Virus record (IMG/VR): IMGVR_UViG_3300024520_000299
Span: 1-33,244 of that record
Length of the DNA: 33,244 bases
DNA from: a virus
Reading direction: 5' to 3' (one strand)
The first letter of the stretch is position 1, and each line of letters begins with the position of its first letter. The translations under genes were made by a program, and so were the position numbers. Below are positions 8,958 through 27,672 of the stretch, in pieces. The notes below the pieces were generated by a model. The model worked only from the letters and a program-made list of their open reading frames with translations. It did no database searches and was not told the origin of the DNA.

Positions 8958-9257
8958 GTGAGTGAGGAAAAGACATTGAAAGAGCAGTTGAAGGATTTGG
9001 GATATACAAGAGAGATTGATAAAAATGGATCATATGATGTTTGGAATTTAATAGGTTACATGAAAGTTGACTACAACTTACACAGGATCAGTGGTCAATT
9101 AATTGCTGCTACAAAACACTCTCCACAATTGGAAGAGAATATGTTGGGGTGGAGCAAGCTTCTACTCAGCATCTGGGAAAGCATTTCATGTGAGGTCTAC
9201 AGGTATGCGTCTGAAAGATTTGAAGAAAAACTAGCAGAGTTTACTCATAGGAGATGA
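8958..9257 (+). CDS. Hypothetical protein with GTG start (99 aa)
   Basis: The frame is open from 8865, but AAGGGGG (8945-8951) lies 6 nt before a GTG at 8958, so that GTG is taken as the start; the upstream part would overlap the HTH gene by 92 nt. The product is soluble and helical, starting SEEKTLKEQLKDLGY, with no known motif. One base separates its stop from the next gene. Confidence 0.65.
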   Translation: MSEEKTLKEQLKDLGYTREIDKNGSYDVWNLIGYMKVDYNLHRISGQLIAATKHSPQLEENMLGWSKLLLSIWESISCEVYRYASERFEEKLAEFTHRR

Positions 9258-9258
9258 T

Positions 9259-9636
9259 ATGGACAAAAGCAAAGAATACATAGCCATGTGTGAGAAAGCT
9301 ACTGAGATACAGGAACAGCGACCTCATTTGATTGGGGATTTCCGCTTTGATACAGTTTTAGAGAAAATACAAGTCCTTCAAGAGAATTCAGACATGGACG
9401 ATCAAGAAACTTTCATCTGGCTACCCAGACAAGATCAGTTATATGCGCTGGTGAAAAATGTGGAATGGTTTGAGGTAATGTTTCGTTTTTATGATTGGCT
9501 CTCAGATAGGCTTGATTCCGTTAAGTGGTTCTCTCGTGGCTGTGCGGGAGTTGATTCAAAGGAACAACTATTATTGACCTTTGTGATGGATGAGGAATAC
9601 AACAAAACATGGAACGGGAAGGACTGGGAGGAATAA
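9259..9636 (+). CDS. Conserved-type phage hypothetical protein (125 aa)
   Basis: EYIAMCEKATEIQEQ at the start, FIWLPRQDQLYALV in the middle and EQLLLTFVMDEEYNKTWNGKDW at the end fit a common small phage family recognised by its WLPRQDQL and FVMxExYxKxWxGxxW signatures. The function of that family is not known. Soluble. GGAGATGAT precedes the ATG. It overlaps the next start by one base. Confidence 0.75.
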   Translation: MDKSKEYIAMCEKATEIQEQRPHLIGDFRFDTVLEKIQVLQENSDMDDQETFIWLPRQDQLYALVKNVEWFEVMFRFYDWLSDRLDSVKWFSRGCAGVDSKEQLLLTFVMDEEYNKTWNGKDWEE

Positions 9637-9815
9637 TGGAAAATAGAATAGAAAAGTATTTCTTTAATGAAGAAGATAAAAAGAAATTAATGGCAGTAGC
9701 TGATGCACTAGTAGTCACTATGAATGCTATCAGTAAAGTGTTAGATAACCAGATGGACATCTATAAACGATTTATCAAGCTGGAGGAGGATAAGATAAGT
9801 GAAAAAAATAGTTAG
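9636..9815 (+). CDS. Small helical protein (59 aa)
   Basis: Start 9636 overlaps the previous TAA as TAATG with GGGAGGA upstream; the longer frame from 9609 would lie inside the previous gene. The product is almost entirely helical and may form a coiled coil (FNEEDKKKLMAVADALVVTM and onward). No motif recognised. It overlaps the next gene by 17 nt. Confidence 0.6.
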   Translation: MENRIEKYFFNEEDKKKLMAVADALVVTMNAISKVLDNQMDIYKRFIKLEEDKISEKNS

Positions 9816-10110
9816 CATATTGCTGTTCTTAGTGTGTGTGAATGGGTATGGAGATGAAGATAGATTGCCTCATGGACATGGAGAGGGGAGTTTAATTACG
9901 ATCAAAACGCTATATGGGGTTGAGGTTGTAGATCAAAGTGGTGAATGGATAGACCCCTATTGGTGTGGATGTGAGGACTTACCTGAAAAAGAATGGCAAG
10001 ACTACGACCATCATGAGGTTACAGTAAATAGATATATTCGGACGGAGGGCTTAGAATACTGTCACAAGAACAAGAAATACAGGAAGGTGAACTATGAGCA
10101 GGTTGATTAA
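9799..10110 (+). CDS. Exported small protein with signal peptide (103 aa)
   Basis: A GTG start with GGAGGA 8 nt upstream gives a classical signal peptide: basic KK, hydrophobic core IVSILLFLVCVNGYG, then a polar acidic mature part DEDRLPHGHG. The mature protein is beta-like, with three cysteines (CGC and a later C) that could form a disulfide after export. No family recognised. Early-region phage proteins sent across the membrane sometimes alter the cell envelope or block superinfection, but no evidence for that is visible here. Confidence 0.65.
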   Translation: MKKIVSILLFLVCVNGYGDEDRLPHGHGEGSLITIKTLYGVEVVDQSGEWIDPYWCGCEDLPEKEWQDYDHHEVTVNRYIRTEGLEYCHKNKKYRKVNYEQVD

Positions 10111-10567
10111 GTTTAGAGCTTGGGATAAAGTAAACAATAAGTTTTTTGAGAACATTTACGAAGCGTATAATGGGAACTTACAGGAGCTGGTGATTAATCT
10201 AGATGGAGCTATAGGTATTCGAGATACTAAAGGCTTAGACTGCTTGAGAGCGGATGACTTTATTCTCGAACAGTGGACAGGCCTACACGATAAGCATGGT
10301 AAGGAGATCTATGAAGGGGATATTTTAGAACTAGTGACAAGTGACTATAAGGGCGGGCTATTCAAAATTATATATTCCGCTGATGGGTATAATAGTGGTT
10401 TTGCCTTGTTGTGCATTAAGCCAAGTAAGTACGAAGAAAAGGATAAAGCACTTTGCGAACATATGAAAGCATATCCTAATCATATGATATGCTCATCTTG
10501 TTATAAAATCATAGGAAACATACACCAACATAGTCATCTACTTGATAAGGAGGATACATGTACTTAA
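10094..10567 (+). CDS. YopX-domain phage protein (157 aa)
   Basis: IKFRAWD at residues 5-11 and WTGLHDKHGKEIYEGDI at 61-77 are the hallmark blocks of the YopX family, a beta-rich domain found in many phages and prophages; its biochemical role is not established. The usual C-terminal segment is extended here with a Cys/His region (CEHMKAYPNHMICSSC) that could hold a metal. GAAGGTGAACT precedes the ATG, and it overlaps the exported-protein gene by 17 nt. Confidence 0.85.
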   Translation: MSRLIKFRAWDKVNNKFFENIYEAYNGNLQELVINLDGAIGIRDTKGLDCLRADDFILEQWTGLHDKHGKEIYEGDILELVTSDYKGGLFKIIYSADGYNSGFALLCIKPSKYEEKDKALCEHMKAYPNHMICSSCYKIIGNIHQHSHLLDKEDTCT

Positions 10568-10725
10568 TCGGCTGCATATTCTCTTATGGACTTTTTATAT
10601 CTCATAGTGATGAATTTAAAAACATGCCCTGGTGGAAGCAGGCATACACTCTTATAGCTTGGCCTCTATGGTTGGGAATTGTTATAGGCCTTACCATTAA
10701 GACACTACTTGATAAGGAGGAATGA
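10558..10725 (+). CDS. Small membrane protein (55 aa)
   Basis: An ATG with AAGGAGG 5 nt upstream opens 55 codons inside the end of the YopX gene. There are two hydrophobic stretches: residues 2-14 (YLIGCIFSYGLFI) and about 31-48 (TLIAWPLWLGIVIGLTI), separated by a polar, Trp-containing loop. A two-helix membrane protein is likely. Such small two-TM proteins can be holins, but location in an accessory block away from any endolysin gives no support for that here. Confidence 0.6.
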   Translation: MYLIGCIFSYGLFISHSDEFKNMPWWKQAYTLIAWPLWLGIVIGLTIKTLLDKEE

Positions 10726-12231: not shown

Positions 12232-13410
12232 ATGTTATGGATTAATAAAAAGAGAAAACTATCTGAATTAAACCCTGCTGAATATAACCCACGCATGGTT
12301 ACTGCAAAACAGAAAGAGGATTTATCTACTAGCTTAGATAAGTTCGATGTTGCCGCACCAATCATAATAAACCTAGACAACACCATCATCGGTGGTCATC
12401 AAAGATACCACATACTAAAAGAAAAGGGATGGCATGATGTCGATGTCCGCATACCAGAAAGACAACTTACTAAAGATGAAGAGGTAGAGCTTAACATTAG
12501 ACTTAATAAGAACTTAGGTCAATGGGACTATGCTGCCTTAGCAAATATAGATGATGAGATACTAAAGACTGTCGGATTCACAGAAGAAGAGATGGCAGAT
12601 ATGTTTGGGTTAGACACAGAAGAAGGACTAACTGATCCCGATGACATACCAGAAGTTAAGGAAGAAACATATGTCAAGCTAGGAGATATATACCAACTTG
12701 GAGAACATAGGCTAGTTTGTGGAGATGCTACAAGCACAGATGCTGTGGATAGGCTTATGAACGGACAGAAAGCTGATATGGTGTTTACCGATCCTCCTTA
12801 CTTGATGGGCTTTAATGGAAGTGTGCACTCGGATGGAAGTAAAAGTTATAATTCGAGATATGGTGCTATAAAAAATGATAAAATGTCAGAAGTAGAAGGG
12901 GAAGAGTTTGTGACAAAGTTTGTTTCTATTATAGAGCGATATACCTTAGGAGCATTTTACATTTGCTTCTATCGGCTGGGTTTAGATAAACTATTTTATT
13001 CATTAGGGATGACGAACCTCCTGTATAGAGCTTTAATAATATGGAATAAGGGTAATCACACACTTTCAAATAGTGACTACATGTCAAAATATGAGCCAAT
13101 AGTGTATGGGTGGGTTGATGTCCACGAGTTTAATGGACGCCCTGATTATGACATATGGGAGATAAAAAGAACCAAAAAAAATGATTTGCACCCCACCATG
13201 AAACCAATTGAATTGTGTAGTAAGGCAATAACGAATAGTTCAAAAACTAATGACAAAATACTCGATCTCTTCGGTGGAAGCGGCTCAACCCTAATAGCCT
13301 GTGAAAGACTCAAGCGTAAATGCTATATGATGGAGCTAGATCCACATTATTGTCAGGTAATTATAGAGAGATGGGAGCAATTCTCTGGAAACAAAGCAGT
13401 TAAGCTGTGA
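12232..13410 (+). CDS. ParB-like/beta-class DNA methyltransferase (392 aa)
   Basis: Transfers a methyl group from SAM to DNA (N6-adenine or N4-cytosine type). The N-terminal domain (about 1-130) is ParB/sulfiredoxin-like, with NPR at 19-21 and IIGGHQRY at 52-59. The catalytic domain has the permuted beta-class order: FTDPPY (catalytic motif, 185-190) comes before HPTMKP (320-325) and the SAM-binding DLFGGSGST (345-353). No restriction endonuclease is adjacent, so it is probably an orphan enzyme protecting phage DNA or marking it for packaging. The start has GAGGGG 6 nt upstream, inside a hairpin. It sits immediately before the packaging genes. Confidence 0.9.
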   Translation: MLWINKKRKLSELNPAEYNPRMVTAKQKEDLSTSLDKFDVAAPIIINLDNTIIGGHQRYHILKEKGWHDVDVRIPERQLTKDEEVELNIRLNKNLGQWDYAALANIDDEILKTVGFTEEEMADMFGLDTEEGLTDPDDIPEVKEETYVKLGDIYQLGEHRLVCGDATSTDAVDRLMNGQKADMVFTDPPYLMGFNGSVHSDGSKSYNSRYGAIKNDKMSEVEGEEFVTKFVSIIERYTLGAFYICFYRLGLDKLFYSLGMTNLLYRALIIWNKGNHTLSNSDYMSKYEPIVYGWVDVHEFNGRPDYDIWEIKRTKKNDLHPTMKPIELCSKAITNSSKTNDKILDLFGGSGSTLIACERLKRKCYMMELDPHYCQVIIERWEQFSGNKAVKL

Positions 13411-13451: not shown

Positions 13452-13838
13452 ATGTATAAAAAGAGTGTGATATTAAAGAAGATTAGAGAGAACTTATCAA
13501 AAGGATCAGGTGTGTTTAATGCCTGTAATGCTGCTGGTGTTCCTTATGGTACAGTATGGACATGGCGTAATCGTAGACCAATGATTGAGAGATACTTTCA
13601 GAAGATGTTAACTCAAAGAGTTCAGTTGGTAGAAGATGCGTTATATAAAGGAGCGATCTCCGGAAACACTACTGCACAAATATTCTACCTTAAAAATAGA
13701 GGGAAAGGTTGGGCTGATGGGCCGATAGTAGATCAGTCAAACAAAGTAACATTCAACGTCAACTGGGTGATTGATGGAAAAAGATCTTACATTGCACCAC
13801 AATCAAGGTTTAGTCTGGAAGAGCCAGAGTCGTTATAG
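13452..13838 (+). CDS. terS: Putative small terminase subunit (128 aa)
   Basis: Probably recognises phage DNA to start packaging. An N-terminal HTH-like region (about 5-45, with GVFNACNAAGVPYGTVWTWRN) is followed by a helical oligomerisation region ending in AQIFYLKNRGKGWAD, which resembles the C-terminus of many TerS proteins. It overlaps the large terminase by 65 nt, so its last ~20 residues are constrained by both frames. Assignment rests on the HTH plus the position next to TerL; TerS sequences are poorly conserved. Confidence 0.75.
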   Translation: MYKKSVILKKIRENLSKGSGVFNACNAAGVPYGTVWTWRNRRPMIERYFQKMLTQRVQLVEDALYKGAISGNTTAQIFYLKNRGKGWADGPIVDQSNKVTFNVNWVIDGKRSYIAPQSRFSLEEPESL

Positions 13839-15105
13839 AGTCTTAGTTGCCGGTAGAAGGTTTGGCAAGACTGTATTGGCACTCAATGAGTTATTTCAGA
13901 ATGCGATTGTGAATGATGAGTCGCTCAACTGGTACATAGCACCAACATATAAGCAAGCGAAGATGATAGCCTGGCGTATGTTGATTAAGATGATACCACC
14001 AGAAATAATCACAAAGAAGAACGAATCAGAGTTATATATACGCTTCCCGAATGGTTCAACGATTGAGCTGAAAGGTGCGGACAATGAGGATAGCTTGAGA
14101 GGTGTTGGATTATCCTTTTCGGTTCTAGATGAATTTGCATCAATGAAAGCAAATGTTTGGAGTGAGATTGTAAGGCCTATGTTAACAGATATGAAAGGTC
14201 GAGCGTTGTTCATTGGTACACCCAAAGGTAAAAACTCTATGTTTGAGATGTATGTCAAAGGCCAAAAGGGCATTGATGGGTTTGAAAGCTGGAAGTTCGG
14301 AACAGTAGATAATCCATTTATAGACCCCGATGAAGTTGAACAAGCACGGAAAGAACTACCTGAAAGATATTTCAGGCAAGAGTATGAAGCAAGCTTTGAA
14401 GATTATACGGGTATTGTATGGCCAGAGTTTGATGAACGTACACATGTAATTGACCCGATCCCACTAGAAGATCATTGGGAGCGGCTGGGAGTGATAGATC
14501 CTGCGGTTACAGGCACTACAGGGGTGCTGTGGGGTGCGATCTCCGATGATGGAACGATCTACATCTATGATGAGTTCAGAGAGGCTAACAAGCGAGTTTC
14601 AGACGTTGTAGACAGTATGAAGGCAATAGATCAAGTAGAGCGCTGGTTGATAGATCCAGCAGCAAAGAACAGTATGGCGATGAAGTTTGGGGATCTGTAT
14701 AGCATATATGACGAATACCGAGACAGTGGCGTTTACGCTGGTTTTGCTGAAAAGGATATAGATGCAGGTATTAACAGAGTAGGAGAATACTTCAAGACAG
14801 GCAAGCTCAAGATCTTCTCTACCTGCAAATGGTTACTGTGGGAGTTAGAGCGATACCATTACGTTGAAGATAGAGATTCAGGGTTAGGGTTAGTAAAGCC
14901 AAAGCCATACAAGAAAGACGATCATTTGTGTGACTGTTTAAGATACTTGATTATGAGTAGATTCCCTAAACCAGCAAGGCCAAGAGGTAAAGTGGTATAC
15001 AAGACACAAGATCAAATAGCACATGAGAAAGCACAAGCAGCAGCCCGAAAGAAGGTTCGTGAAGCTAAAGAGATGACAAGTGAATTTATAGGGAGTGATT
15101 GGTGA
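13774..15105 (+). CDS. terL: Terminase large subunit (443 aa)
   Basis: ATP-driven packaging motor and headful or cos nuclease. ATPase domain: Walker A AGRRFGKT (26-33), Walker B FSVLDE (115-120) and coupling motif GTPKG (148-152). Nuclease domain of RNase H fold: D242 in GVIDPAVTG, D294 in LIDPAAK, and acidic residues in KKDDHLCDCLRY (about 381-391). Length is normal for the family. ATG 13774 is preferred over TTG 13771; only a weak GGTGA precedes it, so coupling to the small subunit is likely. Confidence 0.95.
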   Translation: MEKDLTLHHNQGLVWKSQSRYRVLVAGRRFGKTVLALNELFQNAIVNDESLNWYIAPTYKQAKMIAWRMLIKMIPPEIITKKNESELYIRFPNGSTIELKGADNEDSLRGVGLSFSVLDEFASMKANVWSEIVRPMLTDMKGRALFIGTPKGKNSMFEMYVKGQKGIDGFESWKFGTVDNPFIDPDEVEQARKELPERYFRQEYEASFEDYTGIVWPEFDERTHVIDPIPLEDHWERLGVIDPAVTGTTGVLWGAISDDGTIYIYDEFREANKRVSDVVDSMKAIDQVERWLIDPAAKNSMAMKFGDLYSIYDEYRDSGVYAGFAEKDIDAGINRVGEYFKTGKLKIFSTCKWLLWELERYHYVEDRDSGLGLVKPKPYKKDDHLCDCLRYLIMSRFPKPARPRGKVVYKTQDQIAHEKAQAAARKKVREAKEMTSEFIGSDW

Positions 15106-15575: not shown

Positions 15576-15755
15576 ATGAAAATATGTGCCGTGTGTGAAA
15601 AGAGATTCATGGGGCTAGGCAATCATGCTGTTAGGCATTATCCAAATCCAAGAAACATACAAGATGTATGCTGTTGCAGTACAGCGTGTGCAGTCAAATG
15701 CATTGACAAGGCACTTTGGGATGAGGTTGCACAAATACAGGAGTCTAAGACATGA
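15576..15755 (+). CDS. Small Cys-rich zinc-finger-like protein (59 aa)
   Basis: CAVCEKRF (residues 4-11), two His in a NHAVRHY stretch and the cluster VCCCSTACAVKC (about 31-42) give at least eight potential ligands; the spacing recalls small treble-clef or TRASH-like domains. ATG 15576 follows AAGGTG. Overlaps the portal start by 4 nt. It might be a small DNA- or protein-binding factor; no named family recognised. Confidence 0.65.
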   Translation: MKICAVCEKRFMGLGNHAVRHYPNPRNIQDVCCCSTACAVKCIDKALWDEVAQIQESKT

Positions 15756-17845
15756 TATGGGATAAAGGTGGGAGCAATAAGCAAACCGATGGTGAGAACT
15801 TAATCGTATCAGAAGCAGAAGACAAGTTGAATGAAGCGTTACAGCATCGTAGATGGTATGAAAGACAGTGGTATATCAACATGAGTTTCTATCTTGGGTT
15901 TCAGTGGATTCGTTGGAATAGTGATTCATGGCGTATTGAGATCCCCCCTGCTCCATCATGGAGAATAAGACTTACTTGTAATCACCTGCAACCAATCATA
16001 GCGAAGTATGTAGGTAGAATCAAGAAGAACAGACCTGTCTTGAATGTTGTACCTGCTACAGAAGAGGAATCAGACAAGAATACAGCGGTATATTCACAGG
16101 AAGTATTAGAGCATATTGAACGTGTAGTGAAGCTTGCCAACAAGAACACAAGACTTGCGACGTTGGTATCTGTATATGGAACAGGGTTTAAAGATCATTA
16201 CTGGGATGGATCTGCTGGGGATCGGATAGAAGAGCCACGTGTTACAAAGAGCGAACAGACTATTACAGATGATGATGGTTATCCTATCGTAGATGAATAC
16301 GGACAGCCACAGACAGAGACAGTTGAAACACCTGAGTTGGACAAGAAAGGAGAGCCGATTGTAGATTCGTTTAACTTGGGAGAAGTAGCAGTTGAAGTGC
16401 TTGGGCCGTTTGAGGTAGTACCACAGCCAGGTGCTAGACACATAGACGATTGTGAGTGGGTATTTAAGTGCAAACTGCGTAGCTTAGAGTGGATAAGAAG
16501 TACATACAAGGAAGGATATAAAGTTAATCCTGAGACTAGCAAAGGTTCAACTCCTATGGAGAAACAGTTGTTGCAGTTGATAGGTGAATCAAAAGTATAT
16601 GGAGATGCGAAACCAAGGAAATCACATATAGTAAACAAAGATGATGAACTAAAAGAAGGATTTGCGACAGTTAAAGAATGGCGTGTAAAACCAAATAAAA
16701 CACATGCACGTGGTCGTTTAGTTGTCTTTGCTAATGGGATATTGCTGCATGATGGTGATTTACCTTATGAAGCGTGGATCAAGACCAAGTCGCTTGGGAT
16801 TAAGCAGTATGACTTCACAGAGGTACACGATAGGTTCTGGGGACGTACACCACTTGAAGATCTTATTCCTTTGCAGGTTGAGTACAACAAGACACGATCT
16901 CAGATCATAGAGATAAAGAATCGTATGAGTAAACCGCATTGGATTGTAGCAGAGGGGCAGAATGTTCCAAAGGAAGGAATACCAACAGAACCAGGTGCGA
17001 TTATCAGATATACACCAGTTGCAGGTGCGCAAGAACCGCATCAAACTAAGATGTCACCGCTTCCGGCATATGTTCATAAGGATTTAGAAAGTAATCTCAA
17101 TGACATGCAGAATATATCGAGTCAGCATGAAGTATCAAGAGGAACAGTCCCTCCTGGTGTTGGATCAGGTGTAGCTATCCAGTTGTTGCTTGAGCAAGAT
17201 GAAACACCTATTGGCCCGACCATTGAGAGATATGAGCAGGTTGAGGGTGAGAGTGGGATGTTGATCTTGAATCTGGTTAAAGAGAAGTATAAAGAACCAC
17301 GAAAGATCGTGTTGATAGGAAAAGATAATGAGTTGTTAGTAAAGGATTTCACAGCTAGTGAGAATATGCCAACTGACGTAATTGTACAGTCAGGGACAGC
17401 AATGCCACAGAGTAAAGCAGCCAGACAAGCGATGGTGATGGATCTATGGAGAGAAGGAATGTTAAAAGATGAGAGTAAAGCATTAAGACTATTAGAGCTA
17501 GGAAATGTAGAGGAGTTGTTTGAGGAAGTAAATGCAGATGAGAAGATGGCTGAGATAGAGAACAGGCGTGTAAAAGAAGGACAGCCAATACAAGTGTATG
17601 AGTTTGAGAACCATATTATACATGTTGATTTTCATGATAAATTGCGTAAGTCGCTGTGGTATGAGAATGCTGATGAGCAGTTACGAATGATGATAGATCA
17701 GCATCAGCAGGAGCATGAGTCGTATATGCAACCACCACCAGGACAGGAAGGGCCGCCACCAGGTGGACAACCTCCTATGGAAGGTGAGATGCCACCAGCG
17801 GAACTACCACAAGAAGGAATGATGCCACCAATGGGGGCAGGTTAA
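15752..17845 (+). CDS. Portal protein, P22-like (697 aa)
   Basis: Forms the dodecameric ring at the head vertex through which DNA passes. The size and the N-terminal pattern (WYERQWYINMSFYLGFQWIRW, then TCNHLQPIIAKYVGRIKKNRP) match the P22-type portal family. A central FWGRTPLEDLIPLQVEYNK block and a long C-terminal helical region follow. The last ~45 residues are rich in Pro, Gly, Met and Gln, a low-complexity tail. It lies in the expected order after TerL. Overlap with the previous gene is 4 nt. Confidence 0.88.
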   Translation: MIWDKGGSNKQTDGENLIVSEAEDKLNEALQHRRWYERQWYINMSFYLGFQWIRWNSDSWRIEIPPAPSWRIRLTCNHLQPIIAKYVGRIKKNRPVLNVVPATEEESDKNTAVYSQEVLEHIERVVKLANKNTRLATLVSVYGTGFKDHYWDGSAGDRIEEPRVTKSEQTITDDDGYPIVDEYGQPQTETVETPELDKKGEPIVDSFNLGEVAVEVLGPFEVVPQPGARHIDDCEWVFKCKLRSLEWIRSTYKEGYKVNPETSKGSTPMEKQLLQLIGESKVYGDAKPRKSHIVNKDDELKEGFATVKEWRVKPNKTHARGRLVVFANGILLHDGDLPYEAWIKTKSLGIKQYDFTEVHDRFWGRTPLEDLIPLQVEYNKTRSQIIEIKNRMSKPHWIVAEGQNVPKEGIPTEPGAIIRYTPVAGAQEPHQTKMSPLPAYVHKDLESNLNDMQNISSQHEVSRGTVPPGVGSGVAIQLLLEQDETPIGPTIERYEQVEGESGMLILNLVKEKYKEPRKIVLIGKDNELLVKDFTASENMPTDVIVQSGTAMPQSKAARQAMVMDLWREGMLKDESKALRLLELGNVEELFEEVNADEKMAEIENRRVKEGQPIQVYEFENHIIHVDFHDKLRKSLWYENADEQLRMMIDQHQQEHESYMQPPPGQEGPPPGGQPPMEGEMPPAELPQEGMMPPMGAG

Positions 17846-18300: not shown

Positions 18301-18337
18301 CAAGTTGATGTGACATGCAGTCGCAAGGAGGTAAGTG

Positions 18338-19225
18338 ATGTATTTATGGAATATGTTGTTTGTTTTGGGTTTTGGTTTGGAAGATGGAGAAAGCATGATA
18401 GTTGAGCCTGGAACTACCGAAGACCAAGGTGCTAGTGATGGAACTGTGGGAGTCAGTGAACCTGATGTAAGTGGGGAACCTGACCAACCTGCCAGTAGTC
18501 AACCGGCCCAGTCTGATTGGTATGACGGAGTGAAGAATACCATGCTAGAGCGTGTACCTGCTCGATTTAAAGAAAGATTCTCTGAGTTAAGTGGAGAGGA
18601 ACTCTTTGAAATGATTGAGAAGGGAGACGACTACACCAACAAAACAACAGAAGTAAAGAGGGAAAGAGAAGGATTAGATCCATATATTCGTATGGATAAT
18701 TGGATGAATCATCCAGATAATAGACAGAAAGCAGAGAAGATTTTAGCTTTAATAAGGGAAGATACGGCAGCAGTCGCACAGGACTCCGATGGAGTTGACG
18801 ATCCCTATATGAGCGAGATTAACTCATTGAAGAATACCATTCAGACAATGCAGAATTCAGCGAGAGATCGTGAGGCTGTAAACATTCAGAATGATATTCA
18901 GAAGGAGTACGATCAAGTTAAGGGGAAGTATGAGTTTCTTAGTGACTTTGATATGAAGAACATAATGGCTCTTTCGTACCAAAATGGTAAGAAATTACCT
19001 GCGATTGCGAAAGAATATGTTAAGAATATTGAAGGCGCAAGAGATACCGTCAAGAAAAACTACATCAAGGAAAAAGTCAGTGATACTGGCTCTGGAATGG
19101 GATCTCCTGGTGGTAATGCTCCGACTCCGACTGGAAGAAAGCTCTCTCTGAGTGATGGATCAGCTAAGAAATCTTTTGCTAATTCCTTGAAAGCTTACAT
19201 GAAGGATGCGGTAAGAGATACTTAA
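18338..19225 (+). CDS. Putative scaffolding protein (295 aa)
   Basis: Acidic, mostly helical protein directly before the major capsid gene, the usual place for an assembly scaffold. Residues ~20-60 are a disordered Gly/Ser/Asp/Pro region, residues ~60-250 are charged helices (RFKERFSELSGEELFEMIEKG and later segments), and the C-terminus is basic (about 260-295, GRKLSLSDGSAKKS), as expected for coat-binding tails. ATG 18338 has GGAGG 6 nt upstream but gives an oddly hydrophobic first 14 residues. ATG 18395 with GGAGA 4 nt upstream is a plausible alternative giving MIVEPGTTED. Confidence 0.75.
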   Translation: MYLWNMLFVLGFGLEDGESMIVEPGTTEDQGASDGTVGVSEPDVSGEPDQPASSQPAQSDWYDGVKNTMLERVPARFKERFSELSGEELFEMIEKGDDYTNKTTEVKREREGLDPYIRMDNWMNHPDNRQKAEKILALIREDTAAVAQDSDGVDDPYMSEINSLKNTIQTMQNSARDREAVNIQNDIQKEYDQVKGKYEFLSDFDMKNIMALSYQNGKKLPAIAKEYVKNIEGARDTVKKNYIKEKVSDTGSGMGSPGGNAPTPTGRKLSLSDGSAKKSFANSLKAYMKDAVRDT

Positions 19226-19240
19226 TAACAGGAGGAAATG

Positions 19241-20563
19241 ATGGGTCAAACATTAGCCAATTTTCAGGCTGCATTAAAGAGAGATTATCACGGGCCGATT
19301 ATCGATTCGTTGAGAAATCTATCACCAACATACAGACTTATTGAGAAGAATGAGGAAGATGTTAGTGGTGATACTTTAACAGCATATGTACCAATTAAAA
19401 CAAGAAGAAATCAGGGTATTGCATCCATTGCGGAGAATGCCGCTTTACCACCTGCACAGAACTCTGCGTTCTTGCAGCTCGCTATTCCATTAACGAACAC
19501 TTATGGAAGAATCGAGTTTACAGGGCAAACAATGGCAGCTTCCAGAAAGTCTTCTACAGCATTTGCGAAGGTCGTAGATGTTGAAGTTAATGGAATGGTA
19601 GAAGCAATGAAGATCAATGTTAATAGAATGCTTTGTAATGGTAATGGAACTGGTTATCTGGGCCAGACAAATGGAACAGGTGGCGGCGCCGATGCTACTG
19701 TGACTGTTAATAATCCTGGAACACAGTATCTTGAAGAGGGACAGAGCATTTATTCCTTAGATGCTGAAACTGCAGGTACAGCTACTGGTGATGTTGATAT
19801 TTCAGAAGGTTTAACAGCAGCAACAGCTTACAGAGTTGGACCTATCACAAGTGATACAACTTTTGAGCTATATGATTCAGCATTTGCATCAATAGCTACT
19901 GAGAAATGGAGTGATAACAGGTTCTTGTTTCGATATGGATCTCAAGACAATGAAATGATGGGTCTTAGAGGTGTCATTGATAACGAAGCCATTAAAGCTA
20001 CATCTTCTTGGTTTGGGTTTGGTAATGCTATTACAACCATTTATGGATCATCAAGGGTAACGAATCCAATACTTGATGCAAACATCGTTCATAACAATAA
20101 TGCAACTCAGGTTCTAACAGAAGCTAACATGGAGAATACTCTAGATACTATAGAGAAAGCTTCTGGACAGTTGGGTGCAATTGGAAAGAGATGTATCATC
20201 ACATCCTATGGAGTAAAGAGAGCATACGTTGATCTGTTGCAGGCTGACAGACGTTATGTCAAACCTCTTAATCTGGTTGGTGGATGGAAAGCTATTGCTT
20301 ATCAATATGGTAATGAAGAGATTCCTATCATCGTTGATAAACAAGCTGTACCTAACACCATGATGTTCGTGAACACGAAGTTTCTAGCTATCTATCGCGC
20401 AAGTGAATTTGATTGGTTAGATTATGACGGTTCCATGTTCCAGAGAAAGATCGATTCTAATGGTGAGTACGATGCTTACACAGCAACTATGTACTGCTAT
20501 ATGAATCTTGGTTGTTCTAACTTTAAGGCACAAGGTGCTTTGAGAGACATAACAGAAGCGTAA
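19241..20563 (+). CDS. Major capsid protein, HK97-fold type (440 aa)
   Basis: Main shell protein. The N-terminal part (ALKRDYHGPIIDSLRNLSP, then a TLTAYVPIKTRRNQG strand region about 45-60) and the C-terminal part (FVNTKFLAIYRASEFDWLDYDGSMF) fit phage capsid proteins made with a separate scaffold. Residues ~141-233 form a Gly/Thr-rich beta insertion that looks like a separate surface domain. ATG 19241 is chosen for 5-nt spacing from GGAGG; ATG 19238 is too close. The length is usual for the fold. Confidence 0.85.
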   Translation: MGQTLANFQAALKRDYHGPIIDSLRNLSPTYRLIEKNEEDVSGDTLTAYVPIKTRRNQGIASIAENAALPPAQNSAFLQLAIPLTNTYGRIEFTGQTMAASRKSSTAFAKVVDVEVNGMVEAMKINVNRMLCNGNGTGYLGQTNGTGGGADATVTVNNPGTQYLEEGQSIYSLDAETAGTATGDVDISEGLTAATAYRVGPITSDTTFELYDSAFASIATEKWSDNRFLFRYGSQDNEMMGLRGVIDNEAIKATSSWFGFGNAITTIYGSSRVTNPILDANIVHNNNATQVLTEANMENTLDTIEKASGQLGAIGKRCIITSYGVKRAYVDLLQADRRYVKPLNLVGGWKAIAYQYGNEEIPIIVDKQAVPNTMMFVNTKFLAIYRASEFDWLDYDGSMFQRKIDSNGEYDAYTATMYCYMNLGCSNFKAQGALRDITEA

Positions 20564-20605: not shown

Positions 20606-20628
20606 GGTTAACTATCAATGGAGGAGTG

Positions 20629-21591
20629 ATGATAAAATTTAAGAATCTACATCCAGAGCTAAAAGATAGAATATCTGCTCTTGAAGCTGCGGTATTCTGT
20701 AAAGCAGATGCTGAAAAACCAAAGAAAAAGGCTGCAAAGAAAGCTGCAAGTATCCTCCTCGTTGGGTTGATTATTCTTGGATTCGGTGTTGCCGAAGCTA
20801 GGATTGTCAATCGTACAGTAGATCCTGATGCTGCAATTTCTATCAGGAAGATTGATGTAACTGTTGCTCCTGAGAACAGTAATTATAGCAATGGCAATGC
20901 GTACATACAGCTACCAACTACAGCAACTGGTAGTCTGCCTGCGGCTTCTTCTGGGAATGAGGGTGGATTTGCTTATGATGACACTACTAACACTGTAAAG
21001 TTTAGTAACGCCTTGTCATGGACAGAAATATCAGCGTCAACAAGTGGAGCAATAACTGCAACTGGTGCTGAGATAAGTGGAGCGACTGTTAACTTAAACG
21101 TAAACAGTAACTTTGCTGTGAACATTGGAACAGGGACTACTAATGCTCAAGTTTCAATTGGTGGAAACTCTAATGCAGTTGCCATTGATGCTAACTCTTG
21201 GGATATTAGCAGTGGTGGTCTTGCAGTATTTCCAAATGGTAGAATAACTGATTTTGCGTCGGTTTCTACTGGACAGACATTAACCAATGCACAATCAGGA
21301 AAGTTAATTGACAATCTTACGGCTGGAAATACTCATGATTTACCTGTAGGTGATACAGCAGGTGTATGGTTTACTTTCACGTCGGGAGATGCCAATACTT
21401 TCAACATTGATCCTAATGGGACTGATGTGATTGCATGGTTTGATGGAACAACTACGATGGCTGCTGGAGATAAACTTTTGTCTCCTGCTAGTGCGACTGG
21501 TTCAACTGTTACATTAAGATGTAATGGTGCGAATACGTGGATGGTTGTGAACCTTTACGCATCAGCTAATTCTTGGTCTGACAATAACTAA
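20629..21591 (+). CDS. Beta-rich protein with internal export/TM segment (320 aa)
   Basis: Residues 1-28 look like a short cytosolic helix (LHPELKDRISALEAAVF). A Lys/Ala-rich stretch (KPKKKAAKKAA) leads to a hydrophobic segment (about 41-56, SILLVGLIILGFGVAEA) with a good signal-peptidase-type end AEA before ARIVNR. The rest (57-320) is Gly/Ser/Thr/Asn-rich beta structure with a GGFAYDDTTNTVKFSNALSW motif typical of phage fibre or decoration proteins. Probably a head- or tail-fibre-like protein, anchored or exported. ATG 20629 has GGAGG 4 nt upstream. Confidence 0.6.
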   Translation: MIKFKNLHPELKDRISALEAAVFCKADAEKPKKKAAKKAASILLVGLIILGFGVAEARIVNRTVDPDAAISIRKIDVTVAPENSNYSNGNAYIQLPTTATGSLPAASSGNEGGFAYDDTTNTVKFSNALSWTEISASTSGAITATGAEISGATVNLNVNSNFAVNIGTGTTNAQVSIGGNSNAVAIDANSWDISSGGLAVFPNGRITDFASVSTGQTLTNAQSGKLIDNLTAGNTHDLPVGDTAGVWFTFTSGDANTFNIDPNGTDVIAWFDGTTTMAAGDKLLSPASATGSTVTLRCNGANTWMVVNLYASANSWSDNN

Positions 21592-21662: not shown

Positions 21663-22916
21663 ATGAAAAAAGTAACAACAATTGGTTCGATCTTTCTCAT
21701 ATTTGTTTTCGGGTATTTGTTTCACAGAACTTACATGGTGAACGCATCTAGAGAGTTACTATGGATCTTTGGTAGTTGTTTCTTGCTTGGGTTTGTAATA
21801 AAAGATTTCTGGATAAGGGCTTTCTTTTGGAGTTGCTTGGTGAGTGTTGCTTCGTTTAACAAGATGCCTATCTACATGCTAGAGGTATATCTATCGTTTG
21901 TGAAGGTTGCATTGGCATGTGGTGTGATCGTTGCTCTACAGCACTATATTAAGACAGAGCGTGATGTCAGGATAATCATGAACTTTATATGTGTAGCAGT
22001 TATGATTCAGGTGATATATGCGTATCTACAGCGTATGGGGTTTGATCCTGTGTATTCATCTAATGGCGCTCCTGAGGTAGTTAATGCTGCTAAGAAGCAA
22101 GTGATTGGGTTTTGTCATGCTGTTAACCATTTTGCAGCGTTTATTGGAATTGGGTTTTGTTGTTTCTTTAGAAATACATGGAAATTTAAAGGTGTTTTGA
22201 ATATTAATGGGAAGATGAGGAAGATAACAGTTCCTGTTGGCTGGTGGATGTGTATTCCAGTAATACTTCCAGTCTTGTTTCTCAATAACAATACGACAAA
22301 CAATACAAGAGGTGGGATATTGTTGATTGGTTTTACTTTCTTGTACTTTGCTACTCGTAAGCTTAAATCTATAGATAGATTGACTATATATGTATGGGGA
22401 GCGTTACTAGGAGCTGTATTATTGCTTAAAATGGGTGGTTCAAGTGGAAGGTTTGAGGTCTGGGTAGATACTTTAAAGAACATGGCTCCTGAACGGTACT
22501 TGTTGGGGTATGGATTAGGTAAGTATAGGGTTTGGTTGCCAGCGGGTTCTTTCTGGACAGCAGCACACAATGAATATATACAGACGTTCTTTGTTGTGGG
22601 TATATTTGGATTGTTGTCGATCTTGGGGTACATAAACAAGATTATAAGAGATTTCTTACTAAAAAAACGTGATTATTATCAAGACATACTCTTATGTGGT
22701 GTGTTTTGTGTTGGTATAAATTGTATGGTTAATTTTACATTCCACAGAATATGCTTGATGATCTTATGTCTTACTTTCATAGGCGTGTACGGTGGATATA
22801 AGGGGAAAGTGGTAAAAGATGAGCGAAAAAAAGTCAGGAAAACAAAAAAAGTGTCAACAATGCGGAAGGTGTTGTTGTTTGTACGTTCAAGTAAAGCAAT
22901 GTGGGCTAAAATTTAA
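21663..22916 (+). CDS. O-antigen ligase/polymerase (WaaL/Wzy)-like membrane protein (417 aa)
   Basis: Integral membrane glycan transferase-type protein with about 12 hydrophobic segments (5-22, 32-47, 52-65, 74-93, 103-122, 155-169, 193-208, 217-231, 239-256, 308-325, 342-357, 363-378). Family signatures are present: NHFAAF (155-160), NTRGG (214-218), then a large outer loop with RFEVW (263-267), LLGYGLG (280-286) and AHNEYIQ (301-307), whose histidine is the conserved one. WaaL, Wzy and PglL proteins share this layout and act on lipid-linked glycans on the outer face of the inner membrane. The last ~35 residues are basic and overlap the next gene. It sits among virion genes. Confidence 0.8.
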   Translation: MKKVTTIGSIFLIFVFGYLFHRTYMVNASRELLWIFGSCFLLGFVIKDFWIRAFFWSCLVSVASFNKMPIYMLEVYLSFVKVALACGVIVALQHYIKTERDVRIIMNFICVAVMIQVIYAYLQRMGFDPVYSSNGAPEVVNAAKKQVIGFCHAVNHFAAFIGIGFCCFFRNTWKFKGVLNINGKMRKITVPVGWWMCIPVILPVLFLNNNTTNNTRGGILLIGFTFLYFATRKLKSIDRLTIYVWGALLGAVLLLKMGGSSGRFEVWVDTLKNMAPERYLLGYGLGKYRVWLPAGSFWTAAHNEYIQTFFVVGIFGLLSILGYINKIIRDFLLKKRDYYQDILLCGVFCVGINCMVNFTFHRICLMILCLTFIGVYGGYKGKVVKDERKKVRKTKKVSTMRKVLLFVRSSKAMWAKI

Positions 22917-23142
22917 TACACCTGCTCCTGTCTTTATTTGTGAATACTTAAATGTAGAAACTAATCTTTGCAAAATACATAAAAGCGACAAAAGACCTAA
23001 GAAGTGTGCTGATTTCTTCTGTGGAGGAAATAGAAGGTTCATGTCGTTAAACGTAGAAGGAGTAGACGATAATGAAGGTATCAATTGGGAGAATGCGAAC
23101 CAGAAAGAACCCGTCCGCAAATCGATTATTACAGCGGTATGA
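22819..23142 (+). CDS. YkgJ-type CxxCxxCC cysteine-cluster protein (107 aa)
   Basis: Matches the PF03692-like pattern: CQQCGRCCCLYV (residues 12-23), FICEYLNVETNLCKIH (about 39-54) and DKRPKKCADFFC (about 57-68), with eight or more cysteines for an iron or zinc cluster. The family includes putative metal-chelating proteins and the flagellin lysine methylase FliB; a role in modifying another protein is possible but unproven. It overlaps the ligase-like gene by 98 nt and the next gene by 71 nt, unusually long overlaps here. Only a weak ribosome binding site is seen. Confidence 0.75.
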   Translation: MSEKKSGKQKKCQQCGRCCCLYVQVKQCGLKFNTPAPVFICEYLNVETNLCKIHKSDKRPKKCADFFCGGNRRFMSLNVEGVDDNEGINWENANQKEPVRKSIITAV

Positions 23143-23953: not shown

Positions 23954-25294
23954 ATGAGGAAAATACTTTTAATTGTCTCTTTGTTATTGATAACAACGCT
24001 ATCGTATGGGCGTGACACAGGAAGCAGAGATTCGTATCGTAATGCTTTAAGGAATTTGAAATTTGACATAATTCCTGCAATAAATGATGTCCGTGATCTG
24101 GGATCTTCTACTAAGCGATTTAATGAATTGTTTGTGACCAATGTCAATCTATCTGGAGCTGGGACATTTGAGCAGATCATTATTGACGCAGATAACAATG
24201 AAGCTCTATTGATTCGTAAAGATGGAGATTTAGGAGATGTTTTAACTGTAGATACCGGTGATCCGGCTGATAATGCTACCAAAGCACTAGAAGTAATCCC
24301 GAATGGTGGTGGATTTACTGGATCAGCTAATCCTGTTCGTGGTATTTCTGTTGAGACAACTGTAAATACAGGAACTCAGAGTGACTTAATAAGAGGTCTT
24401 AATGTTCGCACAATAACATCAGGTGATGCCGTAGCTAGTGGAGTTGGCGATAATGGGGTTCGTGCTGGACATTTTTTAAGTATTCATAATTCAACTGGAA
24501 CTACGGCTGAATTGAATGGTTTTAATGTCACATATGGTGCATTGACTGCTGGTTCTAGTGTGGATGCAGGGTTATTGACTGATAGTTATGGTATAAAACT
24601 CTCTGGTGGGTTTAATAGCTCGTCGGGATCAGGATCTATTACAAATTCATATGGTGTGCGAGTTGTTGTGCCTTCAAATACAGATGCTACCCATACAATC
24701 AATAATATTTATGGATTACGAGTAGATAATCAGGTGGCCACAGGCATAACTAATGCGTGGGCGTTGAAAACATTTGGTGGTCTAGTTGAGTTTGAATCAA
24801 CTGCAACAGATTCAACCGTATTGTTGCTAGGTGCTACAGCGGAACAGACTTCAAACATATTTGATATACCGAATGCAGATAGTTTGACTACTGGTAAAAT
24901 TATTAACATAAGATCTAATAGTTCTAATGGTTCTACTAGGGATTTGTTTAGAGCGAATAATGATAATCCTGGTTCTGCAAATACAACGGTTATGCGGTTA
25001 CAGCAGGATAGTAACGGAAAAGGCTTAATCGTGGATGATAATGGTAATAATGGTGCTGGTGTTCTATTTGATAGGGATTCAAATGCTGCTGTCCCAATTG
25101 CAGCTTTAGAGATTCAGTCAGATAATGCTGGTGCTGGAGATCCTTTGGGGATTGATATGGCAACATTTAGTGCAGGAGAGCCGTTGTTTAATGTTCCAGC
25201 AGATGCGGTTGATCCAACTGGTGGTGGTGTATATGGCCAGATAACAGTAAATATTCCAGGTGTTGGTGAGAAGAAATTGGTTCTATATAATTAA
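23954..25294 (+). CDS. Fibre-like protein with signal peptide, paralogue 1 (446 aa)
   Basis: Signal peptide: MRK, a hydrophobic core (ILLIVSLLLITTL), then SYG before RDTGSRDSYRNALRNLKFD. The mature part starts with a block nearly identical to that of the protein at 25516, followed by VRDLGSSTKRFNELF, a motif common at fibre N-termini, and a long Gly/Ser/Thr/Asn-rich beta region with recurring ...STGTTAELNGF... and ...SYGIKLSGGF... elements. Likely a fibre or surface protein, unusual in carrying a Sec-type signal. GGGGGC lies upstream of the ATG. Confidence 0.7.
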   Translation: MRKILLIVSLLLITTLSYGRDTGSRDSYRNALRNLKFDIIPAINDVRDLGSSTKRFNELFVTNVNLSGAGTFEQIIIDADNNEALLIRKDGDLGDVLTVDTGDPADNATKALEVIPNGGGFTGSANPVRGISVETTVNTGTQSDLIRGLNVRTITSGDAVASGVGDNGVRAGHFLSIHNSTGTTAELNGFNVTYGALTAGSSVDAGLLTDSYGIKLSGGFNSSSGSGSITNSYGVRVVVPSNTDATHTINNIYGLRVDNQVATGITNAWALKTFGGLVEFESTATDSTVLLLGATAEQTSNIFDIPNADSLTTGKIINIRSNSSNGSTRDLFRANNDNPGSANTTVMRLQQDSNGKGLIVDDNGNNGAGVLFDRDSNAAVPIAALEIQSDNAGAGDPLGIDMATFSAGEPLFNVPADAVDPTGGGVYGQITVNIPGVGEKKLVLYN

Positions 25295-25515: not shown

Positions 25516-27672
25516 ATGGTGAAGAAGACATTATTGGTATTACTTGCACTGTTGTTATGTGTTCCTATTTATGCTAGGGATACTGGAAGCAGAGATTCCT
25601 ACCGCAATTCATTAAGGAATTTAAAGTTCGATATAATTCCTGCTACTGATGGCGTTCGGGATCTAGGATCTGCTGCCAAGAAGTTTGATAGCATCTTTGC
25701 TAACAGTATTACTCTTTCTAGTGCTGGGACATTTGATCAGGTGATAATTGATACTGATAATGGAGAAGCACTGTTGATTCGCAGAGATGGAGATGCTGGT
25801 GATGTCATAAAGGTAGACACAAGAGACAAATCTTCGTTTGTTGGGGATTATTTTACATTATATGTCGAACCTACAGGCGGACAGCATACAGGTAATGGCA
25901 ACGGGATTGTGGGCGTATATGCTATAAACAGGGTTAATACGGGGACACAATCAGTCTTTATGCGTGGATTTCAGTCACAAGTTGCTACAAAAGGTGATGC
26001 TATTCTAAGTGGGGCCGGTGGACAAGGTGCTGCTGGGCTATGGAGTGCCGCAATACATGATTCTACAGGTACAACTACAGAGTTGCGGGGTGTACATGCT
26101 GTTGCGACTATCTTGCCAGGTGGATCTACGACTACTGCTGGCTTGACTGATGTGGCAATAGGGTTAAACGCTGCTTATGGGTTTGGATCAAGTGGCGGTA
26201 CAGGAACAGCGACTCTAGGGGCTGGTATTAGGGTAGAAGCTCCCACAACTACGGCTGCTGGCAGTAGGGTAATTACAACTGGTCATGGTTTATTGATAGA
26301 AGATCAAACAGCGAGTGGTATAACAACTGCTTATTCTATAAAGACAGAAGGTGGAAAAGTTCAGTTTCAACAAACAGTAGCAGAAGATGCTGTTTTGATC
26401 GATCAAGATACAAACGATAATGGTCTTGATATAGATTCAGAAGCAACAAGTGCGGCATTGATTAATCTATCATCTCCACAGATACAGACTGGGAATGGTA
26501 TTAGGTTTGCTGATTTCAATTCTTTGACGACGGGAAGAGCGTTCTTTGTTCATTCAAATTCTTCTGATTCAAGTAATCGAGATCTTTCATTCTTTCATAA
26601 TGAGCATGCATCTGCGACAGATACAACAGTTGCTCTGTTTCAACAGGATGCTGTAGGAACGAACATACAGACAACTGGTGGGACAAATGTGTTTACAAGT
26701 GAACTAGAAATGAATGGTAATATACAATTGAAAAGCAATAATGAAGTTAGATTCTATGACAATGGTAATTACGTAGGGTTTGAAGCGGGGACACTGGCGG
26801 GCGATCAGATATGGGTATTACCGACAGCAGATGGTGGAACAGCAGGGGACATCATTAAAACAGATGCTTCTGGAAATCTAGCATTTGTGACTCCTACAGT
26901 TGATATTGATATTGCTTTAACATCATATGATGCAGAGCCAGCACGGGCAAGTGAAACAAACTTACATGGTGGATTATTAGCTACCAATACAGCGGCGGCA
27001 CTCGGGCCAGCAACACCAGCCAATGATATTGCTGTGAGTAAGGGAATTGGAAAGATAATGATTGTAGTTAATGCAGGCAGTGATTTGTCAGGAACGATCA
27101 CAATAACAGGTGAGAGCATAGATAGAGATACAGGAGCTTCAACTGGAGCAGACACAGATACGATTACCGTTGATGCTGTAAGCATAGATGGATCAGATAC
27201 GGATTCAAATGGAAACACAAGACATTCATTTACAGATGCATATATATCATCAAAATGGTTTACTGGTGCAGTAGTTCTTTCTACTTCAACCTTGAATTTA
27301 TCAGATGTTGATGTATATCACGTTTCCTTTGAACAAATGAATGACCAGACAGCTCTTACCTTAAAGACTTTTGATGTGAATCTATTTACAACGAATGTAG
27401 CTGCTGAGTTTGATGCGTACTTGTATTGTTTGGAAGTTACCGCTGGTAAATGTAGTATAACGAGATGTGCAAGCCTTAATGTTGGAGCTGATGGTGAAAC
27501 AGCTATAGCGAATAAGTATTGGAGATTACGAAGAGGCAATATCGCTCAAGCCCTAGATGGCTCGACTGATGGACTCTGGGCTGATTTACACTATACAAAT
27601 AGTCCTTCATACGTAGAGGATGTTACTACTAAAATATGGGTAACTAAATCTCAAACATTGACATTGTCGTAA
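25516..27672 (+). CDS. Fibre-like protein with signal peptide, paralogue 2 (718 aa)
   Basis: Signal peptide MVKK-TLLVLLALLLCVPIYA ends in a good A-x-A-like site before RDTGSRDSYRNSLRNLKFD. The first ~350 residues parallel the protein at 23954, including VRDLGSAAKKFDSIF and GDGEALLIRRDGDAGDV-like segments. A fibre-type block (ELEMNGNIQLKSNNEVRFYD, then GGTAGDIIKTDASGNLAFV) and an extra C-terminal beta domain (about 480-718) with a cysteine pair follow. Probably the larger of two exported or surface fibre-type proteins; the extra domain may carry binding specificity. GGGGTG precedes the ATG. Confidence 0.7.
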   Translation: MVKKTLLVLLALLLCVPIYARDTGSRDSYRNSLRNLKFDIIPATDGVRDLGSAAKKFDSIFANSITLSSAGTFDQVIIDTDNGEALLIRRDGDAGDVIKVDTRDKSSFVGDYFTLYVEPTGGQHTGNGNGIVGVYAINRVNTGTQSVFMRGFQSQVATKGDAILSGAGGQGAAGLWSAAIHDSTGTTTELRGVHAVATILPGGSTTTAGLTDVAIGLNAAYGFGSSGGTGTATLGAGIRVEAPTTTAAGSRVITTGHGLLIEDQTASGITTAYSIKTEGGKVQFQQTVAEDAVLIDQDTNDNGLDIDSEATSAALINLSSPQIQTGNGIRFADFNSLTTGRAFFVHSNSSDSSNRDLSFFHNEHASATDTTVALFQQDAVGTNIQTTGGTNVFTSELEMNGNIQLKSNNEVRFYDNGNYVGFEAGTLAGDQIWVLPTADGGTAGDIIKTDASGNLAFVTPTVDIDIALTSYDAEPARASETNLHGGLLATNTAAALGPATPANDIAVSKGIGKIMIVVNAGSDLSGTITITGESIDRDTGASTGADTDTITVDAVSIDGSDTDSNGNTRHSFTDAYISSKWFTGAVVLSTSTLNLSDVDVYHVSFEQMNDQTALTLKTFDVNLFTTNVAAEFDAYLYCLEVTAGKCSITRCASLNVGADGETAIANKYWRLRRGNIAQALDGSTDGLWADLHYTNSPSYVEDVTTKIWVTKSQTLTLS

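Follow-up and report, generated by a model that had tools for sequence, protein, structure and literature searches.

A WaaL-fold enzyme encoded beside export-signal virion-type proteins in dozens of unrelated uncultivated phages suggests that phages export and sugar-coat their own outer proteins

The window analysed here is the whole of IMG/VR record IMGVR_UViG_3300024520_000299, a linear and possibly incomplete viral contig of 33,244 nt. Its virion genes form a block in the order terminase large subunit (TerL), portal, probable scaffold, major capsid protein, the gene at 20626–21591, a Wzy-like membrane enzyme, small genes, fibre-like genes, and a match to an SU10-type adaptor (Table 1). The preliminary description had placed the enzyme gene between capsid and fibre genes in a late virion block and the positions agree, with the capsid gene (19238–20563) upstream and fibre-like genes starting from 23544 downstream. 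The small ORF at 22819–23142 presumably resembles metal-binding proteins of the YkgJ type. Upstream of TerL are a DNA methyltransferase with a ParB-like N-terminus (12232–13410) and a MarR-type regulator (179–616). No integrase was found among the Pfam matches of the 47 proteins scanned from this linear, possibly incomplete contig, and tRNA is also absent; a promoter and terminator scan found sites no more common than in shuffled sequences. A terminase search of genome contigs for the host gave one weak match to a Bacteroidia MAG, which is uninformative on the host.

Table 1. Features of the window and of three related phage loci carrying a lipobox-like protein.
Feature	Position	Strand	Remarks
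Terminase large subunit (TerL)	13771..15105	+	phrog_2; 54% identity to L004, 52% to L037
Portal protein	15752..17845	+	phrog_156; P22_portal/SU10_portal match among window proteins
Probable scaffold	18335..19225	+	inferred from position between portal and major capsid protein; no family match
Major capsid protein	19238..20563	+	phrog_14242; upstream of the partner/Wzy pair
Partner gene, fibre/decoration-like protein	20626..21591	+	directly upstream of Wzy; C-terminal half homologous to L184 counterpart
Integral membrane glycan transferase (417 aa) of the Wzy_C/WaaL-PglL superfamily	21663..22916	+	motifs, profile, model; conserved R263, G282xG284, H302, E304, Q307, G313
Small Cys-rich (CxxCxxCC) ORF	22819..23142	+	overlaps 3' end of Wzy gene by 98 nt
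Fibre-like protein, canonical Sec signal peptide (MRKILLIVSLLLITTLSYG/RDTG)	23954..25294	+	predicted signal
Fibre-like protein, canonical Sec signal peptide (MVKKTLLVLLALLLCVPIYA/RDTG)	25516..27672	+	predicted signal; N-terminus similar to 23954–25294
Lipobox-like small protein	L131:9366-9593		upstream of Wzy
Lipobox-like small protein	L136:3840-4076	-	upstream of Wzy
Lipobox-like small protein	L157:3152-3421	-	upstream of Wzy

The enzyme ORF is open and encodes eight predicted transmembrane segments, and the motifs NHFAAF (residues 155–160), TRGG (215–218), RFEVW (263–267), LLGYGLG (280–286) and AHNEYIQ (301–307) are recognizable in the protein. Pfam Wzy_C matches it with E = 8.9e-5 and 22.8 bits, under the curated cut-off of 31.7, and membership was therefore tested through homologues, a profile of 55 viral relatives, and a structural model. 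The cut-off is exceeded by the L004 homologue (45.3 bits) and by that of the L037 record (59.1 bits). Wzy_C matches 55/55 aligned viral relatives at E ≤ 0.01, and their profile finds among solved enzymes the oligosaccharyltransferase 9rmk (E 2.7e-17, the best match) and WaaL 7tpg (E 1.6e-10). The AlphaFold2 model of the window protein (pLDDT 84.6, pTM 0.83) has WaaL 7tpg as its sole PDB match with E ≤ 0.001 in a Foldseek search (E 1.3e-4, prob 1.00), such that the nearest fold by structure search is WaaL and not an oligosaccharyltransferase. We conclude that the ORF encodes a genuine member of the PF04932 (WaaL/PglL) superfamily. The window protein falls in no PHROGs family and NCBIfam gives nothing of note for it; among its relatives, NCBIfam TfpM matches two members and PEP_O_lig_1 matches one. 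None of the 55 members has PglL_A (PF15864) among its Pfam matches, and PilO likewise lacks it (PMC3643930).

Residues R263, G149, G282 and G284 are invariant in the 55 sequences and all lie outside the pattern used to collect relatives; H302, E304, Q307 and G313 are also invariant and lie within it. Invariance of H302 is thus partly by construction, because the residue is inside the pattern that collected most relatives, but the L004 homologue, found independently via its terminase, retains it. At another position within the pattern, the window protein has V311 where the family otherwise has a constant Glu. The catalytic residues of Escherichia coli WaaL are R215, R288 and H338 (PMC3643930), and we infer that R263, H302 and the R216 position of the window protein correspond to these catalytic Arg and His residues. 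The preliminary description had proposed a WaaL/Wzy/PglL-type enzyme with all signatures, and had named loss of the loop histidine and arginines in homologues as evidence against it. All five motifs are present and the enzyme is probably intact, and H302 and R263 are kept in 55/55 sequences, but the TRGG arginine fares differently: R216 is retained in the closest relative, L184, and is variable across the wider family, with many relatives having lost it.

Relatives were gathered by searching viral contigs with the degenerate motif AHNE[YF]xQ...ExG, which gave 103 matching stretches and, after removing duplicates and adding the window, L004 and L037, 73 distinct viral Wzy-like genes. The pattern matches in L153, L168 and L196 were set aside as chance occurrences in short ORFs with low profile scores. 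The tree of these genes is deep, with a median end branch of 0.68, and L184 is the nearest row to the window. No match was found by tblastn in 50,697 isolate phage records with four Wzy members (window, L004, L158 and L175) or with one neighboring protein (from L158). In BFVD, an uncharacterised 434-aa protein of Arthrobacter phage Faja (A0A3G2KG04) is a weak structural match to the window model (E 0.016, prob 1.00) and a possible cultured example. Phages of this kind are also contained in IMG records 2751185577, 2829404553 and 2829002044.

L004 and L037 are the nearest phages by terminase (52–54% identity), and their portal and capsid proteins have no blastp-detectable similarity to those of the window. 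In both, a Wzy_C gene is nevertheless retained, flanked by the head block on one side and by fibre genes on the other. The preliminary description had suggested a survey of this position, with absence of the gene from all relatives pointing to a local insertion, and that idea is ruled out by the homologues at the matching place in both phages. Wzy_C is missing from most of the more distant terminase relatives, and the gene is therefore neither a private insertion nor universal.

We then considered the genes beside the enzyme. Sec signal peptides were called with an in-house rule set rather than SignalP, and are predictions; the rule set calls just 7 of 824 shuffled N-termini. An adjacent gene on the same strand with a predicted signal peptide is present at 45 of the 59 viral Wzy loci having both neighbors visible, compared with 13/308 genes lying more than three genes away on the same contigs and 12/1,300 genes at Wzy-free viral loci related by terminase. 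With free choice of start codon the counts are 49/59 loci and 15/308 distant genes, so that 76–83% of Wzy loci have an adjacent signal gene against a background of about 4–5% elsewhere on those contigs. The pairing persists after clustering by identity (32/45 at 50%, 14/22 at 35%), and most partner genes are separated from Wzy by –34 to +25 nt. In 47/58 neighbors an AxA-type cleavage site comes after the N-terminal hydrophobic core, as against 16/70 first transmembrane segments of Wzy proteins used as controls. In L004 and L037 the predicted signals are on the genes directly downstream of Wzy and on a head-decoration-like gene two upstream. A small protein (75–89 aa) with a lipobox-like N-terminus (LSGC, LTGC or LCGC, then a YYP motif) is encoded directly upstream of Wzy in three related phages.

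Where the partners can be identified they are capsid cement or fibre-type proteins. The L158 partner (9013–9534, beside a Wzy gene at 9537–10649) belongs to Phage_cement_2 (PF09956), with 27.6 bits against a curated cut-off of 24; the L037 partner, of the L037/L004 type, scores 21.7 bits, under that cut-off; the L173 partner is weakly tail-protein-like; and the remaining partners have no family, with no Pfam family found for that of the window. The head genes upstream of the pair are of unrelated types (phrog_1005, phrog_3437, phrog_133/4523 of the protease-capsid kind, and phrog_9953). Partners contain 21% Ser+Thr versus 12%, and the shared cement domain contains 19.6% in Wzy-bearing phages versus 16.4%. 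Beta-rich fibres are commonly high in Ser/Thr too, and this composition lends weak support to O-glycosylation of the partners.

The window and L184 have just two proteins in common at E < 1e-3, the Wzy-like enzyme (36% identity over 397 residues) and the product of the gene directly upstream (32% over 205 residues, in its C-terminal half). No other single observation points as strongly to the enzyme and its partner working together as this co-movement of the pair. The L184 partner carries a regular signal peptide. That of the window starts shortly after a good ribosome site (GGAGG), and its N-terminus, in which a long Lys-rich region is followed by a hydrophobic stretch and the junction AEA/R, is atypical but signal-peptide-like and is not called by the rule set. 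An adjacent, co-directional gene with a predicted export signal, as in acceptor-paired oligosaccharyltransferases, is a feature of most of the viral loci, whereas the window's own neighbor is atypical at its N-terminus. We read the pair as a mobile two-gene cassette that probably comprises an exported virion decoration protein and a membrane glycan transferase.

Export could also be viewed from the partner's side, and we searched viral contigs with the cement family without conditioning on Wzy, grouping the matches at 90% identity; as the query family was taken from Wzy-bearing phages, the scan is biased toward them. There are 24 clusters with both signal and Wzy, 17 with a signal only, 10 with neither, and 0 with Wzy but no signal. 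All 24 Wzy-positive clusters with a complete start therefore have a signal peptide (24/24; Fisher p = 8e-4, a value that ignores relatedness). The 17 signal-only clusters have no Wzy_C match anywhere on their contigs, which rules out the idea that the signal peptide occurs solely where Wzy exists and indicates that export is independent of Wzy and of glycosylation. Cements beside Wzy stop at the cement domain (151–206 aa), whereas exported cements without Wzy usually extend for a further 84–459 residues of fibre-like sequence with long C-terminal fibre repeats, and the glycan enzyme and the fibre extension look like alternatives. Sec-signal cement-type proteins with long C-terminal fibre-like sequence are seen in L256, L259, L266, L269, L270, L284 and L287, on contigs without Wzy_C. 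It seems that virion-type proteins are exported more widely than the Wzy cassette occurs. The Ala at the junction of signal and mature protein is invariant in the cement family; the AlphaFold2 model of the family was poor (pLDDT 55.9) and was not used for structure search.

The arrangement resembles that of the pilin oligosaccharyltransferases TfpO/PilO–pilA, PglL/PglS–ComP and TfpM, in which a PF04932 membrane enzyme is likewise encoded directly beside a Sec-exported acceptor in the same orientation (PMC3643930, PMC12800693), and the best profile match and the two TfpM matches reinforce the likeness. It differs in that the enzyme is phage-encoded, the neighbor is of cement or fibre type rather than a pilin, and PglL_A is unmatched; an equivalent activity is proposed by analogy. 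O-oligosaccharyltransferase genes typically adjoin their exported acceptor, as 21 of 31 pglL genes adjoin their pilin target, and acceptors have been predicted from such adjacency, with confirmation for ComP (PMC3643930). By the same logic the exported virion-type protein would be the most likely acceptor here. WaaL-type enzymes use an undecaprenyl-pyrophosphate-linked glycan, which PglS attaches to a serine residue in an exported protein (PMC12800693). The Pfam scan of the 47 window proteins found no glycosyltransferase, and the glycan would therefore be the host's.

What we observe is the fold of the enzyme, its conserved catalytic residues, the gene pairing, the predicted export signals, the co-movement of the pair between unrelated heads, and the virion-type identity of several partners. 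We consider it slightly more likely than not that the Wzy-like protein is an inner-membrane WaaL/PglL-fold transferase that glycosylates its exported neighbor, which then coats released virions with host sugar. During late expression the partner, a capsid cement or fibre protein, would be exported with further fibres through Sec; in the periplasm the enzyme would take a host-made lipid-linked glycan of undecaprenyl type and join it to Ser/Thr of the partner, as TfpO/PilO or the ComP-specific PglL do on pilins; and at lysis the glycosylated partner would bind to the outside of released capsids, giving the virion a coat of host sugar that presumably benefits the phage. Cement proteins such as lambda gpD, T4 Soc and Hoc and phage L Dec are able to bind finished capsids from outside, and attachment at lysis would therefore be feasible. 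More tentatively, and at somewhat less than even likelihood, at least four head lineages may export decoration proteins through Sec, glycosylate them in the periplasm with a phage WaaL-fold oligosaccharyltransferase and host lipid-linked glycan, and dress their virions at lysis, with enzyme and acceptor spreading as a cassette and C-terminal fibre domains serving as an alternative where the enzyme is missing.

The preliminary description had favored a change of the host surface glycan against reinfection, with action on phage proteins as an option, and it is the option that appears to fit best, given the exported virion-type neighbors and the pair common to the window and L184. Late polymerization or ligation of a host surface glycan could prevent progeny from re-adsorbing to debris or infected cells, and the exported partner might act at the same surface as a receptor blocker or decoy. 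The fold and best structural match are those of an O-antigen ligase, an exported protein would be in the right place, and prophage Wzy enzymes that change capsule linkage are known (PMC13228068), yet such a role leaves unexplained why an exported virion-type protein adjoins 76–83% of the loci and why the window and L184 share just this pair, and we think it rather unlikely. The partners are cement or fibre-type proteins in the head-gene region, and expression confined to the late block, as the gene's position implies, would leave little time for surface remodeling. The Acinetobacter enzymes Wzy1Ph and Wzy2Ph are also phage-borne multi-pass glycan enzymes, but they adjoin a tailspike or depolymerase gene in integrase-bearing prophages and are not reported there to have a paired exported protein (PMC13228068), whereas the window gene lies next to an exported protein within the head block, and the Pfam matches of this perhaps incomplete contig include no integrase. 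Similarly, the enzyme shares with WaaL its fold and the conserved R and H, but lies outside an LPS locus, is paired with an exported virion-type protein, and gives no indication of a lipid A-core acceptor.

If the N-terminal segments were not cleaved, they could instead tether virion proteins to the inner membrane while particles are assembled or packaged, with the Wzy-like protein as a membrane scaffold or lipid modifier. The long N-regions of some partners, including that of the window, would suit such anchors, but the cleavage sites after the hydrophobic cores make this less likely, and with the invariant junction Ala and conserved catalytic residues also against it we regard it as improbable. 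The enzyme could also be a host-acquired gene unconnected to its neighbors, occupying a site behind the capsid gene that tolerates insertions, as PF04932 genes are widespread in bacteria (10–14 of 14 control genomes) and most terminase-related phages lack one. Neither the enrichment of signal-peptide neighbors, nor the deep divergence of the phage versions, nor the transfer of exactly this pair between the window and L184 would be expected of such a gene, and we consider this very improbable.

We return to glycosylation of the exported partner as the preferred reading. The heads of tailed phages are generally regarded as assembled entirely inside the cytoplasm, and the capsid protein that mycobacteriophage glycosyltransferases are proposed to modify is presumably cytoplasmic. 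If correct, our reading would mean that some of the virion is produced beyond the cytoplasm and completed with sugars of the host; it would explain export signals on phage virion genes, provide phages with a new way to disguise or adapt their particles, and suggest a new kind of locus in which to seek phage-encoded oligosaccharyltransferases, which are of use in protein glycoengineering. Phage-encoded sugar modification of virion proteins is shared with the capsid and tail glycosylation of mycobacteriophages such as Maravista, in which putative glycosyltransferases are proposed to act on the capsid protein (PMC11256854), whereas here a periplasmic-side membrane enzyme and an exported acceptor are proposed. 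We found no report of such a pairing in the open-access PMC literature, a scope that mostly leaves out subscription papers and preprints, and as far as we have found the setting appears new: a putative phage cassette in which an exported virion-type protein is coupled with a glycan transferase of WaaL fold, seen in uncultivated phages from several unrelated head lineages.

Two loci have neighboring multi-pass membrane genes, L176:2986-4104 with the following 378-aa gene and L227:3213-4463 with the preceding 365-aa gene. Each pair includes at least one Wzy-like gene, and the two are possibly tandem enzymes or an enzyme with a flippase.
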